Part shown: positions 1,101 through 29,330 of the stretch, piece by piece
How the letters are laid out: every line of letters starts with the position of its first letter
Numbering within the stretch: position 1 is the stretch's first letter
From: Saururus chinensis
Taxonomy: Eukaryota; Streptophyta; Magnoliopsida; Piperales; Saururaceae
DNA length: 64,000 bases
Reading direction: 5' to 3'
Assembly (NCBI GenBank): GCA_035235625.1
Contig: CP141147.1
Location: forward strand, 5,011,001-5,075,000
Notes under the pieces: generated by a model
Told to the model about the DNA's origin: nothing
Databases searched by the model: none
Seen by the model: only the letters and a program-made list of their open reading frames with translations
Translations under genes and position numbers: made by a program

Positions 1101-3079
1101 AATGGTTGAGTATCATAAGGTTCTCTCGTACTGGATAATTTTTTTTTATGCAACAACAGTGAATATGTTGTTTAAAACAAATATATACATTCTAATCTTC
1201 ATGATTGGTTTAGCTAACCATAGAATGAGACCAAAGATGAGGATGCAACAAATATGCAGATTTGGTATTGTCTTTGACCGAAGAAATTTAGAAAACTCTT
1301 CTAAGCTGGCTGCAGTAGTCTATAGAACAAGAAATTGATGCAGTGATCACATATAAAGTTGATATGTTTCACCTTCTTTTCCAACTGTTTTAAGCTTCCA
1401 TCTCACGCTATAATTGACACGAACTACTTTGGGACAAAAATCTGTGAGGCACTTCTCCCTCTTTACCAGCTTCGATATGACACGCACGTGCAATGACTAC
1501 ATCCCGTTTTCCATTTATTAAATACAAAGCAAATCCAACCTCTGTACTAGCTGCTAAGCACCATATTTACTAGATCTTTGGCTACTGACTTCCAGGATCT
1601 GTTTTTTAATCAGATATATTAATACCACAATTCAAAACAATAAATGCTAACTACATACAGTTTATGTGAGTATAATTTGCAAAATGAAATTAGTCATACA
1701 AAATGTACCATGGAGACCAAAGTGATGAATTATCATAACTAGCATTCTGTTTGTATAAATTTCGCAGCTGATGGATTACTAGATAGGAAGAAAGAGGAAG
1801 CGGCTTTTTAAACAATAAATGCTTATAAATTACTCATGGATGTGATATGAGGTGATCCTTAATTGTATATGTCACCTGGCAGCATTCCGATTATTTGCAT
1901 CACAACATTCAAAATACCTAGTTGCTATTTGGCATGCTTTCTTGGATGATATACATAATTTCAAAATCAACTTTCATGCTCAAGGAAGTGCAAATGATGC
2001 CCTGCCCGCCACGACATTTTTGAAAAAAGAGAGAAAAGAAAACAAGCAAAACACAACTTGGGAAGAAGTAAACAATTAGAATATGCCTACTTCCATTTTT
2101 TCTAATATTGGATAAAATACAAAAAACTCTATCCTTCAACACCCTATAGTACCTAACAGGAACCAAGCAAGGTTCAATATTGTTGTGCGCCAGAATTAAC
2201 AAATGTTGAATTTGAAATGAACTTAAGTATTATAAACTCTGGATGCAGCTAGAATTGAGAGGGAGCATTTGAGCATTCCATACTCAAACAAGAAAACTTG
2301 CATCAGAAAAAAGAAAAACTAAGAAGTTCAAGCTGCTCAAGGTGCATCAACAATGATGTCAGAAAATAGGTAACAGGAACAAGATGATTTTGGCTTATTA
2401 CAGGTGACTAGCTCACCTATGAGGGCTGAAAGGGAGAAGTAAAAAAAGAAGTGTATTACCTTTGCTTTCTCATTCAGAAATGGAATATATAAAAATAATG
2501 CAAAATGTCTATTCAGAATTACTTAAAAGTCAGGAAAAAAATAACATTGTCAGTACTTCTCCATACCATTAGCTTCACTGAAATAAGTGCATAGCTGTCA
2601 CTCCAACAAACCACCTCCTTCCTTACAATAGTCTGAGCTCTTTAAATAAGGCTCAAATACCATCAAATGTAATATATGTTGTCCATGAATTGCAATGCAT
2701 AAAATGCTGACCATACAAACAAATAAACATGCCTAAGTACAATGGCTTTCAAGAGTTAGTTGATGTCACAATAACATGCAATTTGGAGTTTGGATAAATG
2801 CAGCAAGAATTCTGCATACCGAATTTGTCGCCTAGATTTGGAACATATATTATTAACCATATCAAACTTTAACATACCTTAGACTGCTTCAACATACAAA
2901 AAGGTGATGAATTATGCTTGACGCATAAAACATAAAGGTGAAGACAATTATTCCTTGTCAAAGTACGTAATAGATTTCATTTCCACAATGTTTATGTAAA
3001 TTGGGAATAAGATATTATCTTTGCATAACCTGATAATTAAAATTCAACAAAAACTTCTATAGTACATAGCTCCAAAAAG
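1101..3079. other. Unassigned AT-rich DNA
   Basis: About 2 kb with only short open frames lacking recognisable domains or splice structure. I see no gene, terminal repeats or tandem arrays here. Confidence 0.4.
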
Positions 3080-3403
3080 CTTATCATAGCTCTAACAGTT
3101 TCTCTTGTTTAGCAGCTGATTGGGAAACTACAATGAAATTCTCACATGATTGTAACTCCAATAAAACCATGTAAACTATGACCCTGCTGAACAAAGAAAC
3201 CGGCCCAAAGTATAAAATTTTCCAAATTATTAACGCTCCTAACATTGAGTCCGTACAAGGAACCTTTCTTGATTTCAGTGAAATCGAGTTTCCTGAATAC
3301 AGGCATAACACAAACGGGAAGTTTCCAAAAATTAACACTAGTACAAATCTTAAATCGATACGAGGAAAGTTTCCCGATGTCAAAGCACCGACTTTCCAGA
3401 GTC

Positions 3404-3409
3404 TATATA
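3404..3409 (+). promoter_or_regulatory. TATA box upstream of the charged ORF
   Basis: TATATAG lies 83 bases upstream of the ATG at 3492, a normal spacing for a plant Pol II promoter with a short leader. Upstream (3230-3380) there are several GGAAAGTTTCC-like words (near 3259, 3319 and 3364), which recur in the R3 copies at 30.34 and 30.78 kb. Function is inferred from position only. Confidence 0.5.
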
Positions 3410-3491
3410 GAAGATGGTTACCCGTATCATCTTTTCTATCTCCCTCAGTTCAGTTTCTGTTCTTCCCTCCATCGTCTTGCATCCATCATCC

Positions 3492-4097
3492 ATGGCGTTC
3501 GAAAACCTGTATCAGGCCCTCAAGGAAAAAGTCAGCCGAACCAACGACGCCCGCCTCTGCGCAGAGCTAGACCCCCAGGGGAAGCGAAGCCGAAGAAGCT
3601 CAGAAGAGTATGAGGCAGAGCAGCAGGGGCGATGGTGGCGCGAGTTCGAAGAAAGAAGGAAGAGGAGCAGCGAGAAAGCATTGGCGAGGTGGGTGGATTT
3701 CGACCGCCGGGTCCCCGAGCTCCACGGCCCGCGCAAGGCGGAAGAACGTCGCCGCCTAGAGCGAAGTCGACGAGGAACCAAGGAAGCGGTGGAGAGGGCC
3801 GCGAAGGAGTACAACAGCCGGGTCGCAGAGTTCCTCCGAGCGCGCAAGGCAGCCCAGGAGGCGGAAGAGGAGGAGCGGAGGAAAGAAGCGCAGGAGGAGG
3901 AGCGCAGCCCCCTGGAGCGAAGACTTTGATACCCCGAGGCCAAGAAGTCGGCGGCGGAGGATCGAAGGCGGGAGGCGTTGCGAGCGAATCATCACCAGCG
4001 ACTGGAGTGGATGATCTCGATGGCCCAGCGCGCCTTTGAAGAGGCCCATCCAACCCTGATCATTTACAGTATTCGGAGCACAGCCCAATGGGCTTGA
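3492..4097 (+). pseudogene. Charged coiled-coil-like ORF interrupted by one in-frame TGA
   Basis: From the ATG at 3492 (context CATCCATGG, favourable) the frame runs 145 codons to TGA at 3927-3929. It then continues in the same frame with similar composition to a second TGA at 4095-4097, making 201 codons in all. The product is rich in Arg, Glu, Lys and Ala (runs such as EEERRKEAQEEE), suggesting a long charged helix or coiled coil. No signal peptide, membrane segment or known catalytic motif is visible. Base composition is GC-rich, unlike the AT-rich flanks. An earlier in-frame ATG at 3414 exists, but it lies only a few bases after the TATA box. The ORF sits inside sequence shared with the R3 repeats, so it may be a gag-like or accessory ORF of a non-autonomous element. 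I do not recognise the family. Confidence 0.5.
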
Positions 4098-4191
4098 CGA
4101 ATCTTCTGATGTCACAGAAAGAAAGAACATTGTCCACATTTGGATATGTTAGAGTGTTGTTTTAATTGCTATGTAATTAGTTCCTATGTAA

Positions 4192-4254
4192 AGAACTACG
4201 TGTGGTCTGATCCCTAAGGTGGTGCGTAGATGGCGCATAGGGTACGTAGGCAAC
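4192..4254 (+). repeat. LTR-associated motif AACTACGT...TACGTAGGCAAC
   Basis: AGAACTACGTGTGGTCTGAT is followed about 35 bases later by GGGTACGTAGGCAAC. The same paired motif recurs at 29470-29513 and, diverged, at 22717-22787 and 48111-48182 (+), and at 10951-11020 and 61868-61936 (-). Its spread across otherwise different elements suggests a conserved functional block of an LTR or leader region. Confidence 0.6.
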
Positions 4255-4959
4255 TAACACAGGATGTTAGCCCGACCCAAAAATAGATACTCTTCATGTT
4301 TATACGTTTTGATTTTTTTTTGTAAAAGTGGGAAGGGTGGTTCAAGTATTGCTATGCAAACCTTCCATTATATGAAATGAAAGAAAATTTAATTTTTTAC
4401 CCCACGTGAACCTTGCTTACTACCACCATTATGAAGTTTTTACGGTAACTAAGTCATTTTAGTATGGGATATTTAATTTTACTTTGATATAATCTTGTAT
4501 AATGTAATTATCTCAATTGCTTTGTCAAATTATGTCAACACTCTAGGATGAAAAACAACAACCTCATTGAGTATATGTTACATATAAATCATCATCACTC
4601 TTGATGATTGTCTAACAAAAAAAAAATTTAATGTGACAATAATGAAATTGAAACTGCTTCCAGTGAGATAATTTTTTTTAATGAAAACTAATATTCCTAC
4701 TCTCTTTATCTTCACTGAAAGCCTACTCCAACCTCTGATTAGATAGAGAGGGTGAGTCACACATGATGATATAGAGATTTAGTTTTCCAAGTCCAATCAA
4801 AGGCTTTTGTTGTAAAAAAAGTAAAATAAAAATATTATTTTATTTTTCTTTATACTAGAAGAAATGAAACAAACGAACTAAGAAAAACAAAGACGAGAGA
4901 AAAAACATCTAGATAAGTCTCTATGAAGGATTTGACATAATCCCTATGGAGGGTGATAG
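4255..4959. other. Unassigned AT-rich DNA
   Basis: No gene or repeat structure recognised. The first ~60 bases continue the leader-like sequence after the conserved motif. Confidence 0.35.
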
Positions 4960-5365
4960 AACTAATACCAAGAAGTGTGCTCTAATAGAAAAACTAGCCA
5001 TGAAATTTGTTCCTCGATTTTGTTCCAGGAAGATATGATGTATAGCGCAATATGTGAAGGAAGATGTTACCCTTTACATGATTCCTTTGAGCCACCAATT
5101 CTTGTTAGTGAATAATGAATTGAGAAGGTTAATTATACTTAAGGAATCACCTTGGACAATAACTTTAGATAGTTGACAATATTGCATATGTCTAACTCCG
5201 AAGGAGGCATGCATATTATTTTGCCAAAATCACCGAGGGGGAGAGTATAGCAAATCCAACAATAAAATGATTATGTGAATCTCTTACAAGAGCCCCTACC
5301 AAACATATTTGCTTGGAAGACTTGAATCCACCATCAAAATTGAGACAATGTATCCATAGGCGGAG
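4960..5365 (-). pseudogene. LINE RNase H-domain remnant (antisense)
   Basis: The reverse complement translates in pieces that match the plant LINE C-terminal RNase H domain. One frame gives LNFDGGFKSSKQICL with VGALVRDSHNHFIVGFAIL, the start of the fold with its LNFDG aspartate. A second gives KVIVQGDSLSIINLLNSLF, containing the QGDS aspartate strand. A third gives IFLEQNRGTNFMASF, the helix that in intact copies reads like REQNRGAD. At least two frameshifts and several stops separate them, so it cannot be functional. No upstream reverse-transcriptase domain was recognised. Confidence 0.75.

Positions 5366-23001: not shown

Positions 23002-23077
<76 letters not shown>
23002..23077. repeat. 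Perfect (CT)38 microsatellite
   Basis: Thirty-eight uninterrupted CT units directly follow the 3' end of the outer solo LTR. Their purity contrasts with the imperfect CT tract on the LTR's other side (15936-16039). Confidence 0.95.
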
Positions 23078-23080
<3 letters not shown>

Positions 23081-23614
23081 CTCCCTCTTCCCATGTGCAG
23101 CAGGGTAAAATTTCTCCCAGCTGTGCTTAAATCGCCCTCCCTCCTTCCACCCCCAACTCCTCCCTCTGTCATCAAAATTTCTCCATCATCAGTTCACCGC
23201 TTATCTGCGCCTGTTCGCAACTTGTCAATGCCCCCTTCCCCCTATTGTTTCCATTATCCGACCTAGCCTATAGGCACGAATCAGCCTCCGCTGCCAACCT
23301 GGCTTCCCCTACCGACCAGTCACTCCGGCTTCCCCCTCTCCCCTATTTTTTCTCTGCTCCACCCTACTACGGCCAAATCCCCTGCCATGGCTTTGCCCAC
23401 CTCCCGGCTTAGTTGCCGCAATCTCGACTACCCCTGTCATCCTAGCTACTCCCTTCCACCTTCTCCCCTATTTTTCACTACGCTTGCTCCTGCCCTGCCC
23501 GTTGCTTGGGTCCACCACTGCCTTAGTTCCTCTGGCGCCACATCAGCTCCCCTTCTGCAAAGCCAGTCTGGCGGATCCACCCTACCCCCTCTCTCCTGTC
23601 TGTTGCACTGCCAC
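23078..23614. other. C-rich non-coding DNA, probable CACTA interior
   Basis: CCCTCC/CCACC-rich sequence resembling the C-rich stretch inside the first CACTA at 9320-9490. Interrupted at 23615 by the hAT element; the same style resumes at 25794. No gene domain recognised. Confidence 0.45.
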
Positions 23615-23900
23615 TAGGGCTGCACCGAAAAACCGGAACCGAACTGAACCGGGTAAAACCGAACCGAAATTTAGTAGTTCGGTTCGGTTTGGTTCCTTAT
23701 TCTGTTTCGGTTCGGTTCTTGAAAAAAAAAACGACTGAATTTCGGTTCAGTTCGGTTCGGTTTTAAGAAAAATAACCGGAACCGAACCGAACCAATATAT
23801 CTAAACATATAAAAATACTCATTTCTACCCCTTCCCAGCCCTAATTTTACATCCGCCCAAACATTTTCTCTGTTTCTCCCCAGCGGACTGCGGCGACGCA

Positions 23901-24058
23901 ATGGCTCCCTCAGATGCGGTGGCTCCCTACTTCCCTCCGACGTGGTGGTTCCCTTCTCCCTATGAAGAACGCGCGGCTGAAGATTCCGGCCAAGGAGCAC
24001 CAGAGCAGACCAAAACCACCAACACCCTCCTCGTCTCCCTCATGAACCAGCTCGAAAA
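23901..24058 (+). pseudogene. Captured first-exon-like fragment, source unknown
   Basis: An ATG opens a frame of about 53 codons, beginning MAPSDAVAPYFPPTWWFPSP and including TNTLLVSLMNQLEK. It runs to AAAAG followed by GTCTCT, a plausible splice donor. GC content is higher than the T-rich sequence that follows, as for a 5' exon next to an intron. I do not recognise the parent gene, and it need not be the CESA gene. Confidence 0.45.
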
Positions 24059-24150
24059 GGTCTCTTTTTTTTATTCCTTTGATCCTTTCCTCTTCTGGTA
24101 TCATTTTTTTATTCTTTTAATCCTTTCCCTCTTTTGTCTATCAAATAGAT

Positions 24151-24389
24151 GTGTGCTCTATGGCTTATTTTTTTACTGTAAGCGAGTTTCATTTTTTGTT
24201 GGAATGTTAATTTTTTATCTAATGTGTGCTCTATGGCTCATTTTTTTACTATAAGTGAGTTTCGTTTTTTGTTGGAATGTTAATTTTTTATCTGATGTGT
24301 GCTCTACGGCTCATTTTTTTACTGTAAGTGAGTTTCATTTTTTGTTGGAATGTTAATTTTTTATTTGATGTGTGCTCTGCGGCTCTGCC
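24151..24389. repeat. 73-bp tandem repeat, 3.3 copies
   Basis: Units begin at 24151, 24224, 24297 and 24370 (partial), each starting GTGTGCTCTATGGCTCAT and ending GTTAATTTTTTATCTGA. It sits in the intron-like cargo of the hAT element. Confidence 0.9.
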
Positions 24390-25103
24390 TGATATTGTAT
24401 GTTACTATTTTTATGTTCTTCCTAAACAATGAAAAGGTTTCTGTTATGGTTAAAAAGTCCCTGGACTTTCTCTAGGTAGTATTATTGTCATTGAAAATTG
24501 ATTGGTATTAGTTATTTCTTGTGGACATCCTAGATGCATCTAGTTTATGACTACCACTCTGATTTAGTGATTTGTCATGAACACTATTTAATTTGATATT
24601 TGAACGGGTGAGAAACTGCTATAAATTGGCTAGGTTTTTTTTTTTTTTAATCATGTTCTTATTCTTTGATTATATTCTCTGCATTTTCATGTTTATGTTT
24701 TTTCTTTTGCTTGAGGTAGAATGTTGATAGTTGTATTTATAGACTTTATATTATTGAATTTAAATACTGAGATGTCTTGGGCAATATCACCAAAAGGCTT
24801 CTGGATTGTTAGCTAGATGTAGTAGACTCAAAGTGCAGTGACAAAGACTGGACCAACCAAACAAGCAGGTTAAGCTTTATTTAGTAGGTAATTTGGATGT
24901 AGTTTATATAGATATATAGTTTATTTTTAGCAGGTTAAACATGTTAAGCTTTTGTGCTCTTGGGCCGTATCTCCATATAGTTTACTTGGATATATAGTTT
25001 ATTTTCCTGGAGAGGTTTGAACTTGGGGATAATTTTCTTCAGTTTTACCTTACATGTTCTTAGCTTTAGTCTTCTACCTATATTCTTGGTTGTACTGATT
25101 CTA

Positions 25104-25492
25104 GTTCCAGTGAGGATAATGGACCCTTCAAAAGACTTGAACTCATATGGGCTTCAGTACCATGTGACTCACCCTGTTCTTGATGCATATGCATTATGGC
25201 TGGTATATGATATATGTGAGATTTGGTTTGCTCTATCTTAGTTTCTCGATTTGTTTCCAAAATGGAACCCCATCAACCATCAGGCTTACCTTGCCTTGAT
25301 AGGCTTGCACTGAGGTTAGTAGATTGACTTGCATTTCTCTTATGTGTACTTTCATTTTTACTTCCCTTAAGAGATACCATCTATGAGCAATTTGAATCAA
25401 GCCTGACCTCTTTTTTTCAGTATTACAAAGAAGGGGAGCCTTCACAGTTGGCTCCTGTTGATGTATTTGTCAGTACAATGGAAGACTTTTGA
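25104..25492 (+). pseudogene. Captured cellulose synthase catalytic-subunit fragment (CESA1-like)
   Basis: Three CESA pieces in the right order. 25104-25154 encodes [17 protein letters not shown], from the cytosolic N-terminal region before the first membrane helices. It is joined directly to [17 protein letters not shown] and CEIWFALS (25155-25238), from the first membrane helices; in CESA proteins well over 100 residues separate these pieces. TAG at 25239 replaces the conserved Trp after [20 protein letters not shown] follows, then a 5-bp duplication (CCTTGCCTTG, 25289-25298) shifts frame before DRLALR. After an intron-like gap with a TTTTCAG acceptor, 25421 onward gives YYKEGEPSQLAPVDVFVST and then stops. 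No catalytic D or QxxRW region is present, so no enzyme is made. It was carried here by the enclosing hAT element. Confidence 0.85.
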
Positions 25493-25856
25493 AGAGGGCC
25501 AAAAGAAATACTTTCGGAAAGGGCAAAGGGGACGACTTTTATCAAATTTTTGTGTATAGATGTGTATTATAAATGACTTAGGTTGTAACCTTGGTAATTT
25601 TGTATTATTTCTATTTTATTTTGATTAATTAAAGTATTTTAATTAAAATATTTGGTTTCGGTTCGGTTTCAATTCGGTTTCGGTGCTTATATCGGTTCGG
25701 TTCAGTTCTTGTATCTCGGTTCCTAAAGTTGGTTCGGTTCGGTTCCTACTGGAACCGCCTGGAACCGAACCGAGATGCAACCCTAACTGCCACCCCCCCA
25801 AATAAAATAATAAAATAGCTCCTCCCTCCTTGCCCCTCCCGACTGTCATCGAAGGA

Positions 25857-26412
25857 GGAGACGAGATATTTTAAAAAATTTATTAGCAACACTTTAAAAA
25901 GCGTTGCTAATAATTTTTTTCTTTTTAGCGAAGCAAAAAAGGATTTCCTAATAATTTTTATTAAACAAATCTACATAAGAGATGGTTATTATAGCGTCAC
26001 TAATAATATATTATTAGTGACACATAGATACAGATAAGAATTTTTATTTTCTTAGCGATGTGTTTTCTAAAGCATTGCTAAAAAACTTTTTAGCAATGTT
26101 TAAAAAACGTCTCTAGTATTGTTTTTTTTATTTTTTTAAAATATGTTTCCGTATTAGCAATGTTTAATAAGCATCGCTAATTCTAAATTATTAGCGACGC
26201 TTTGTAGCAAGAGTATCTAATACACTTTTTAAAGCATTGCAGAAATACGTATATAACTAGAGATGAAAGAACAGTTGTTGCTAATAGTAGTATTATTAGC
26301 GATGCTTTTTCATTTGCATCACTAATGATTAGTTGCGATGAGACTATTAGCGACACTTTTTAAGTGTCGCTAATAGTCATTAGTAAAGCTTTTCTTCTTT
26401 TTTCTTGTAGTG
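25857..26412. mobile_element. Right end of a second CACTA element
   Basis: Arrays of TTAGCAACACTTTAAAAAGC / GCGTTGCTAATA units run to the terminus TTTTTTCTTGTAGTG ending at 26412. No matching CACTACAA end was found to the left. C-rich and CT-rich DNA on the left, interrupted by the hAT and the nested LTRs, may be its interior. The left end is either lost or too diverged to see. Confidence 0.72.
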
Positions 26413-29330
26413 TTAATTGTGAATCCCACCATTCAATAAAAATCATTTTTTTAAAAGAAATTGAGTTATTACTAGGAGGGAGTAGGATTTTAGACTATTT
26501 CTTGTTTCACACATGTAGTTTTAATTGGTTGACCACACATATGGTTCAAGAAAAGAGCATAAAAAAATTGTAAGTTTTTCAGTTATGTGATCCTTGAATC
26601 TTTTCCTTCATATGGAAGTACTTAGTTGCATTTGCAAATGCTCAATTGAATTCTATACATCATTTGAAGATCGACTTCCAATTCTCAACTAAACAGACTA
26701 GCATAAAAAACAAAAATATTCATTCAAGCTCTTCAAGTTTGCATTGACAATTGACAATGATATTGTCATAAAGAATGAAGAAAAGATAGAGGGTTTATGT
26801 TCTCTAACCCAAAAAATGAAGAAAAGATATGTCAATAAGTAGTCTTTTTTCATAGACAAAAGCCATTTCACAATGGCAATAATGTGAAGCTGAAGCAAAA
26901 CTAAACATCATGTAGTCGATCAAAATTGCTAACAAACATAATGAAACATTGATTTTATTCATTCACAATCTAATAAATGGCAGCTCTTTAAAATTGAATG
27001 TCATTTACTGCTTCAGGATGGTAATATTCATACTAGAGGACAATCCCATAGTCATTCTTTTTTGCGCCCAGATCCATATATCTTTGTTAGAATTGATAGT
27101 ATTAGCATTCAAAGAAAATGACACTTTTCTTGATTAGATCACGTAGGAAAGATTACTCACAAGGAAATATTGGGAAACCACTGCAACAATTTAACATATT
27201 GAAGGCCTTCTTGCTCCCAGTTCTTCTTTGTTTTCAGTAATTTCAACACAATAATACTACCGTCTTTGTCCCACATTAATAGCTTCATATGGTTTGCCCC
27301 GAATGTTAAAACTTCTTGTGAGTCATCCCAAACCTATTAGAACATCTAGAGTGGCATGGAGATAATTATTGGCTAGCAATTGTATACTGGGTAGAACCCA
27401 GTTTGCTTGAATATTACCTTGCATCCCAGACTCGATTCAACGAGGTCCTTTGATAGTCTAAGATCAGCAAGGTAACTGTTTATTCCGAGGCTTGGCCTCC
27501 TCCCATAGATTCTCTTATTCTTCTTTTTTGATGCCTTCATTGATTCCGCCATTTGACTGTACTCTTGTAGCTCTTCGTTTGTAAAAGATGTTATACATAT
27601 GTATATCAACAATGGGTCATGACAAAAACCAAAGAGTCATGTTGATTCAAATTATGTAACTAATGTACAAATACACGCAAAATGTATATATCGTGTTATT
27701 GGATACACTGTATGATGCCTTCTAAGACATGACAGCACAACAGTTGAATGTCACCTTTCGCATTTCGTGTTATTAATAACACATTATGTATGCTACACAT
27801 ACACGATAGGAGGACATCTATATCGAGTATCGTATTATAGATAACACAATATATTGCATATATATTGTATACTTGATAACACAACAATCTACTGAGGAGA
27901 TTAAAGTATTAACTATGTCATGCGTTCCATATCATGATATATAAAAAATCATGTATACGAACATACGATTTAGAGCTAAAGAAAGGCCTTACCACAAAAT
28001 TGATCCAAACTAGATTAACCCCTCGATTGGCCAGTTATTTTCACTAAAGTTCACTACTTTATAGGGATCGCATCAGTATACACTCAGACAGAACCTCACT
28101 TCATGGCCGAAACTTGCTTTGGGGTGGAAATTTTCAATATCACATTTCGGAAACAAGAAAAGCCAAACGTTGCGGAGTTTTTTCACATCTCACATTGGAA
28201 ATCAAGTAAAGTTTTTTTTAAACCGCCAGTGGGATGGGTTGGAAATTGGAACTCACATTGTGTATTCACTTCATACTGATTGAACTGTCAAAATCGTCGG
28301 TTTGTGAAGTCATTTGTGTGTAAATGTGACCATATAAGGGGTTTACATGATATAAAACCCTAAACCCTAACAAATGGGCATTTTTGTCCAAAACTTTCCT
28401 TATATCGTGTAAGTTTGGGTTTATTGGCATTTTTTTGGAAAACAAAGGAATATAGAATATTCCTTTTTTCGGCAAGGCAATATGAAAAAAACTCTTACTT
28501 ATATCGATATGACCACATTTTAGGAACAAAATTGAAACATTAGGTAAACGATGGATAATCTTCAAATGTGTATGTTATTAATAAGAGAATATCACTCTTA
28601 AAATTTATTATTTATGAAATTACAGTTTTTAAACTTAAGCAGTTTTCTTTACAAACAATTAAATCCGTATATTTTTTTATAAAATTGCGATATGTCTAGA
28701 AATAATTATGTATAAAAAAAATTATAACTAAAAATCAACATTTTAGTTAGATAACAATAAACAAATAATACACTATTATATCATTAATCAAATATAATTC
28801 TTAATCCAATTCGCTGTAAGCATTGTGTGAATATAGTATAATGCAGTTAATTTAAGCTACATGACTTTAATTCGAATATTATGTGAATTCATTCTACAAA
28901 TTATTTAAATGATTTTTTTGTATAAATAAACATGTAAAATAGTCAGATTTTATATTACTTTTGTTCCACACATATCATTGAAAAAAAAATATAAATCTAA
29001 AATTCTGCTAGTTGTGTTATCCTTCAATATTGTTGTTCAGATGGCAGATTTCAGTTCATGTATCATTTTCTACTCTCTCTAGCATATATCATATATGATT
29101 CAGAAAACCTTATACTTATTACTGCATTGTGCCTATGAAGAGCCGAACAAGGTTCATAGATGTTCAATACCTCCATCAACCAATGCAATATAATAGCTCC
29201 CGTGAGCTAGTTTAACATATCTTGAATTCTTAACCTCATCAAATTTAAGCTTGGCATAAATACTAGAAACCCCATCACGTTCTGTCACAACTATAATAAT
29301 TCCTCTTGTTTAAGAAACTGTAATTGACCA
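26413..29330. other. Unassigned AT-rich DNA
   Basis: No confident gene. 27190-27300 resembles part of repeat R3 (GAAGGCCTTCTTGCTCC, then TTTTCAGTA). CTACCGTCTTTGTCCCACAT at 27257 looks like a single Stowaway end. 28357-28373 contains two telomere-type CCCTAAA units. A possible minus-strand exon at 27418-27552 is listed separately. Confidence 0.35.
27418..27552 (-). other. Possible exon fragment, unknown product
   Basis: The minus strand from ATG at 27552 reads MAESMKASKKKNKRIYGRR and ends ...VESSLGCK, followed directly by GTAATA, a plausible splice donor. Lys- and Arg-rich, no domain recognised, and no downstream exon found, so it may be chance. Confidence 0.22.

Follow-up and report, generated by a model that had tools for sequence, protein, structure and literature searches.

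A shortened hAT element with DNA from two host genes

The window, i.e., the whole 64,000-nucleotide stretch that was analysed, corresponds to C8:5011001-5075000 of the 11-contig, 516-Mb genome. At positions 23615-25785 it contains a hAT element of 2171 bp, flanked by an exact 8-bp target-site duplication (TSD), ACTGCCAC, which occurs twice in 64 kb, both times precisely at the element borders. The terminal inverted repeats (TIRs), TAGGGCTGCACCGA and TAGGGTTGCATCTC, are equal at 10 of 14 positions, and the tips of the element read TAGGGCTGCACC on the left and GATGCAACCCTA on the right. Repeats of the CGGTTCGG type are present in both ends. The motif CGGTTCGGTT was counted six times inside the element and not once in the rest of the window, GGTTCGG seven times inside and four times outside. 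The window copy thus combines the 8-bp TSD of hAT elements with short TIRs and repetitive subterminal motifs, and the first-pass annotation was right to call it a hAT from its inverted ends, perfect 8-bp duplication and subterminal arrays. When the window was scanned for TAGGG...CCCTA pairs at a spacing of 200-10000 bp with identical abutting 8-mers (67 left and 65 right sites), this element was the single match; the same scan on 200 mononucleotide shuffles of the window gave none.

The window copy contains no hAT transposase, which is present in related copies of the family. As in Pack-hATs, it carries gene DNA in place of a transposase, and the donor genes lie elsewhere. The element is a shortened, non-autonomous plant hAT with DNA from two unrelated host genes, LIP5/VTA1 and cellulose synthase (CESA). 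Its features, in window coordinates, are as follows.

23607..23614, no strand: left TSD ACTGCCAC, exact 8-mer
23615..23628, plus strand: left terminal inverted repeat TAGGGCTGCACCGA
23629..23850, plus strand: left subterminal region with CCGAACC/GGTTCGG repeats, common to CESA-less relatives
23851..23974, plus strand: GC-rich segment holding the start of the open reading frame of the first-pass annotation; no donor found
23975..24058, plus strand: LIP5/VTA1 exon 2 fragment; donor L049, C1
24059..24628, plus strand: LIP5 intron 2 sequence up to donor position 4289; donor L049
24148-24385: 73-bp tandem units inside the LIP5 intron part
24629..24757, plus strand: hAT sequence 5' of the transposase, common to transposase-bearing relatives
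24757..24758, no strand: joint left by the 2.8-kb internal deletion in which the transposase region was lost (1002/3834 in copy L013)
24758..25034, plus strand: hAT sequence 3' of the transposase
25035..25154, plus strand: cellulose synthase piece 1, an intron with the start of an exon; donor L050 4898-5017, 95% identity
25152..25154, no strand: CTT overlap at the joint of a 351-bp deletion
25152..25482, plus strand: cellulose synthase piece 2, an exon and an intron followed by the start of an exon; donor L050 5366-5692, 89% identity
25483..25771, plus strand: right subterminal region with GGTTCGG/CCGAACC repeats, common to CESA-less relatives
25772..25785, minus strand: right terminal inverted repeat
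25786..25793, no strand: right TSD ACTGCCAC, exact 8-mer

Beyond the right TSD, window positions 25873-26413 contain inverted repeats resembling TTAGCGACG and, at 26400, one TTTTCTTGTAGTG site, which we take to resemble a CACTA-type terminus; an exact 13-mer search of the window for the opposite end found none.

The captured pieces stem from LIP5/VTA1 and a cellulose synthase gene

Window positions 23975-24628 align to locus L049 (C1:22.57 Mb), covering part of exon 2 and intron 2 of LIP5/VTA1, a membrane-trafficking gene. The donor exon reads RLYAMERGLKIPAKERTKTTNALLVSLMNQLEK and matches the Pfam family Vta1 at an E-value of 2e-4, below the curated cut-off; a later exon of the donor matches Vta1_C (E 2e-11) as well as plant LIP5 proteins. 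In a protein search with a LIP5 donor exon (240 aa), the named proteins among 120 of 129 matches listed come from flowering plants, at identities of up to 60%. Since exon 2 is joined to its own intron, this piece was copied from DNA. The window element retains the splice donor GT of the exon, and the 73-bp tandem units fall within the captured intron. The first-pass annotation had suggested that a second exon-like piece at 23901-24058 may come from another gene. This is borne out from 23975 onwards, where the LIP5/VTA1 exon 2 fragment begins; for 23851-23974, a donor was looked for and none found. Within this GC-rich segment, the stretch at about 23906-23960 recurs several times in copy L015, in which several repeats of a short GC-rich unit are seen just upstream of the LIP5 exon, at approximately 380-540 of the element.

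The second piece, window 25035-25482, aligns to locus L050 (C4:25.67 Mb) across exons and introns, in agreement with the proposed capture from DNA rather than cDNA. Of the donor exons, one is similar to cellulose synthases in the PDB (E 4.5e-50), and the one following it is assigned to PF03552 (E 2e-61); when three CESA donor exons were searched against Pfam, two gave no family. Donor exons were used because three short pieces of the window element, taken from its CESA and LIP5 parts, had no Pfam match themselves. Relative to the donor, 351 bp are missing at the CTT overlap, creating the odd protein joint before QYHVTHPV that the first-pass annotation had described as distant CESA segments directly joined. 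Its Trp-to-stop change and 5-bp duplication are likewise seen against the donor, as TGG-to-TAG and a CCTTG insertion. A parental CESA locus with matching introns (labelled CESA1-class in that annotation) and a different parent for the first piece, both of which it had called for, thus exist as L050 and L049, and the element is indeed chimeric, with donors on two different chromosomes, C4 and C1. CESA and LIP5 donor DNA matches the window solely inside the element.

Copies of the element across the genome

A genome search with the whole element, in which 40 of 499 candidates were scored, returned at least 80 matches, and copy numbers are therefore lower bounds. Other copies of the ends, on which the first-pass annotation had made its reading depend, do exist in the genome. 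From the whole-element matches 20 regions were compared, of which L009-L027 are 19 copies or relatives and L028 is the CESA donor; 16 further regions were added later. The TSDs of the 19 copies or relatives agree at 8/8 positions in 11 and at 7/8 in three; in the remaining five they were not located at the cuts used, the match falling short of at least one tip, and L023 reaches 7/8 after a 1-base shift. That a degraded CESA pseudogene has been flanked by accidental repeats is of negligible probability, given that 14 of 19 copies or relatives share this kind of termini with 7/8 or 8/8 TSDs and that the shuffle control gave 0/200.

When the genome was searched with the CESA part alone, 14 candidates were scored and 16 matches obtained. 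Eleven of these are element copies, the window copy among them, and two fall in the donor gene; another two, at C4:31.64 Mb (74 and 83%), may belong to a related gene, and the last is a short match in L018. Apart from the window copy, the CESA-bearing copies have TSDs of 8/8 (seven copies) or 7/8 (two copies), with none located in L020. One of them, L009 (C8:4856515), lies 178 kb from the window copy on C8 and has the same TSD, and its flanks are 96-97% identical to those of the window copy over 581 bp upstream and 1517 bp downstream. The shared TSD and near-identical flanks identify the two as one insertion that was duplicated with its surroundings, which rules out separate transposition; all other located TSDs differ from each other. 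The duplicated stretch at C8:4.856 Mb, hAT element included, corresponds to window 23026-27324 (the end of the compared DNA) at about 95% identity.

In a tree of both ends (15 copies), the CESA-bearing copies form one group with a support of 0.47, rising to 0.93 when L016 is left out. In the tree of the left end, L016 falls beside L018, and the CESA-poor L027 inside the CESA-bearing group; the branch of L017 is long in the end trees. The end trees thus weakly favour a single group of CESA-bearing copies.

The 351-bp CESA deletion is common to eight copies. L016 and L020 contain donor sequence from 5276 and 5278, respectively, which is absent in these eight and is joined to LIP5, in L016 at CCTTTGA, found in both partners. 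Since they keep CESA sequence that the eight have lost, L016 and L020 derive from a state preceding the deletion. L017, whose CESA piece starts at donor 5380, is uninformative on this point. The right CESA border is donor 5692 in nine of 11 copies, with L016 and L020 ending earlier. Among the 11 CESA-bearing copies, TGG-to-TAG is confined to the window copy and L009. The CCTTG insertion is found in both, as well as in L010, L011, L012 and L015; it is absent from L013, L014, L016 and L017, and L020 is deleted there. TAG replaces CAG in eight of 11 copies (TTG in the window copy and L009, AAG in L020), which makes early disruption of the CESA piece probable. All 11 CESA pieces are damaged by a stop, an indel or a deletion.

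The right border of the LIP5 piece is donor 4289 in the window copy, L009, L010, L012-L015, L018, L019 and L021-L025, and donor 4285 in L011. Directly after donor 4289, the element sequence GCTAGG or nearly so follows in CESA-bearing and CESA-less copies alike; the border sequence was inspected directly in 11 of the copies with this border. The same border in both kinds of copies argues for a single capture. Counting against this, the LIP5 piece matches its donor more closely in the CESA-less copies (92.8-95.4% identity, substitutions only, n=5) than in the CESA-bearing copies (86.6-91.4%, n=8), a difference for which we have no explanation, despite the identical border. The CESA-less L018, L019, L021, L022 and L023 contain donor 3786-4289 as a single block at 90-94%.

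A transposase-bearing copy contains both pieces

L013 (C4:15.84 Mb, 4869 bp, TSD CATATAAC, 8/8) is the only copy examined that has both pieces together with a transposase. Its hAT transposase region is located between the LIP5 and CESA pieces (PF14372, E 7e-23 in the scanned piece) and is broken by stops and a change of frame. The LIP5 and CESA pieces are oriented alike and in the same direction as this transposase. Together with the retained LIP5 splice donor, this arrangement would suit cargo maintained for a coding or silencing function of a chimeric LIP5-CESA transcript; the damage to the CESA piece in 11 of 11 copies and an 8-bp insertion in the window LIP5 exon relative to the donor make such a role very improbable.

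Relative to L013, the window copy, L009 and L012 lack an identical 2.8 kb (1002/3834), the kind of internal loss by which Ds elements derive from longer, transposase-bearing ones that share their ends. Other copies have junctions at 1083/3892 (L010, L011), 938/3405 (L014), 1153/3757 (L015), 479/4219 (L016), 482/4244 (L020) and 562/4233 (L017). With L016 and L020 taken together, this amounts to six kinds of junction, and L010, L011, L014 and L015 retain stretches beside the transposase that the window copy lacks. Most of the junctions read as Ds-like internal deletions of transposase-bearing ancestors. As L016 and L020 hold CESA sequence that is absent from L013, an ancestor with more CESA than L013 is required.

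The short copies could instead be classic Pack-hATs, in which a short transposase-less element captured both pieces and the transposase of L013 was gained later via recombination with a full-length relative. The absence of a transposase from ten of 11 CESA-bearing copies, and arms that look exchangeable among relatives, are in keeping with this model. We consider it improbable, because the six kinds of junction lie at different places and four copies keep transposase-adjacent stretches; also listed against it are L016 and L020, which hold CESA sequence that L013 lacks and are not simple deletions of L013. Deletion from transposase-bearing ancestors is the reading we prefer. Capture and the 351-bp deletion most likely occurred in an ancestor and not in the window copy, as the deletion is common to eight copies including the transposase-bearing L013. 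Capture by the window copy itself was thus no longer taken as the simplest reading.

L014 contains a further 3.5 kb at approximately 1516-5031 of the element, an insertion whose borders overlap by 5 bp. It is partly matched by L049 1-1505, a stretch that lies upstream of the LIP5 gene, and is therefore probably a separate repeat.

Transposase-bearing relatives carry other cargo

A genome search with the transposase protein, in which 124 of 1359 candidates were scored, gave at least 127 matches. Beyond L013, the closest among the matches listed are C11:21911687 (90%), C3:10927101 (89%) and C1:59987771 (89%). With flanks, these three loci (T52, T53 and T54) align to the L013 core at about 90%, T52 at 90% over 3.2 kb. 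The transposase of T52 comprises zf-BED, hAT-like_RNase-H (PF14372) and Dimer_Tnp_hAT (PF05699) in two stop-free pieces. No LIP5 capture was found in the compared DNA of the three loci. Their left arm is L026-type sequence and their right arm encodes a fragment of isoleucyl-tRNA synthetase (best PDB match E 2.6e-10), for which Pfam returned no family. Among the first loci compared, this fragment is confined to T52-T54; two more copies were found later, and further ones are among the matches listed. C10:32744737 and C1:18032140 were rejected as its donors, since both carry element arms and right-end sequence. The genome search found no donor, the sole other match of a different kind being C6:32822919 (65%), a possible isoleucyl-tRNA synthetase gene. 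A copy on C1 with this fragment is interrupted by about 870 bp of other DNA (L085 1376-2249).

A slot beside the transposase of T52 is occupied by 116 bp from the CESA donor gene (donor 5140-5254, 89%). L061 has 47 bp of this gene, and L027 a 31-bp match (28/31) with a score of 25 against a maximum of 18 in 30 shuffles. No CESA match above shuffles was obtained in nine other stretches (T53, T54, L062, L058, L026, L018, L019, L022, L051), and no LIP5 match above shuffles in any of the twelve stretches compared. CESA remains without LIP5 are thus found in L052, L061 and L027, and LIP5 without CESA in the L018 group. This pattern may reflect either arm exchange between copies, or losses, or repeated captures, and the order of capture it suggests is inconsistent. 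Between the CESA remnant and the isoleucyl-tRNA synthetase arm of the C11 element, a stretch of about 460 bp (L052 420-880, in part also in L061 and L062) is possibly another captured fragment.

The transposase and ends are thus constant, while the gene-derived parts in the arms (LIP5, CESA, isoleucyl-tRNA synthetase) vary, as in the grapevine Hatvine-6 elements. We tentatively suggest, at somewhat short of even chances, that the lineage has two exchangeable cargo arms around a retained transposase, which would have been repeatedly refilled with host DNA (LIP5, CESA, isoleucyl-tRNA synthetase and unassigned sequences) and reshuffled between copies, spreading gene chimeras and then shedding short derivatives.

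Discussion

The comparison of copies gives us high confidence that the window element is a non-autonomous, Ds-like deletion derivative of a hAT lineage of which a transposase-bearing member already had LIP5/VTA1 upstream and CESA downstream. The ancestor would have been a transposase-bearing hAT with LIP5/VTA1 exon 2 and intron on one side and the cellulose synthase segment on the other. Gap repair is a possible route by which such elements take up host DNA. During repair of a double-strand gap inside the element, host DNA may have been copied in from ectopic templates, replacing the arm between the transposase and the end. Internal deletions would then have removed the transposase, giving short Ds-like copies such as the window element. 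Shared ends suggest that this copy moved in trans, through the transposase of related copies recognising them. The captured fragments presumably have no protein function, of which there is no sign, given the damage to the CESA piece in all 11 copies that carry it.

Gap repair, also mentioned as such a mechanism in PMC3260210, is most likely the route of uptake, because the cargo sits in the arms, the donors are on two chromosomes, with no hAT ends found in the DNA examined at either locus, and introns were kept. Its main rival is fusion of two neighbouring elements, which is possible if the donor-side insertions have been lost. In this local hopping model, put forward for Pack-TYPE elements and reportedly illustrated with hATs in a supplementary figure (PMC8903248), two neighbouring hAT insertions around each donor segment are mobilised as one element. 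We regard it as unlikely here, though less so than an origin as classic Pack-hATs: the donors lie on C1 and C4, no hAT ends (E <= 1e-3) were matched at either donor locus within the 9.9 kb examined, no internal TIR remnant was found within the 30-60 bp inspected at the junctions, and the transposase is positioned between the two pieces.

The first-pass annotation regarded gene capture as notable because hATs are not the usual capturers. This argument is weakened by reports of hAT capture from 2008, 2011 and 2022 (PMC2528002, PMC3260210, PMC8903248). Grapevine Hatvine-6 hATs share transposase and TIRs, and the remainder often matches host exons and introns (PMC2528002). In its organisation the present family resembles them, with a constant transposase and ends and a variable host-derived rest. 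It differs in its 8-bp TSD, as Hatvine-6 has a 9-bp TSD and a 13-bp TIR, and in that donors, junctions and deletion derivatives could be traced copy by copy. The same study describes a grapevine family with cellulose synthase exons and introns, which belongs to the Mutator superfamily, whereas the window element is a hAT.

In maize, gene fragments were described in 2011 for two Ds2 and nine Ds-l4 elements, which belong to the non-autonomous Ds group (PMC3260210). Like these, the window element has hAT ends, an 8-bp TSD and intron-retaining fragments from genes on other chromosomes; a difference is that here a transposase-bearing copy has pieces of two host genes. Surveys of maize and rice include Pack-hATs, and one PIF family carries pieces of two genes (PMC8903248). 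The window copy, a TIR element with host gene DNA and no transposase, is like these Pack-TYPE elements, which that paper defines as non-autonomous, whereas here the cargo is also found in a transposase-bearing copy. A hAT with LIP5 and CESA pieces was not found described in open-licence papers.

Gene capture by hATs is already known, and the window element is a clear, unusually traceable example of this process. What is unusual is a hAT copy whose transposase is flanked on either side by host gene pieces, with the short Pack-like copies looking like its derivatives. According to a 2026 review, an undiscovered mechanism might, besides fusion of neighbouring insertions, let DNA transposons take up unlinked gene pieces (PMC13317346). 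As its junctions are known to the base, its donors have been located on two chromosomes, only some of its copies lack a transposase, and its relatives hold other cargo in the same arms, the family makes it possible to compare gap repair with fusion. It suggests that a Pack-type element can arise by deletion from a transposase-bearing element that already carries gene DNA, and need not have been the capturer itself.
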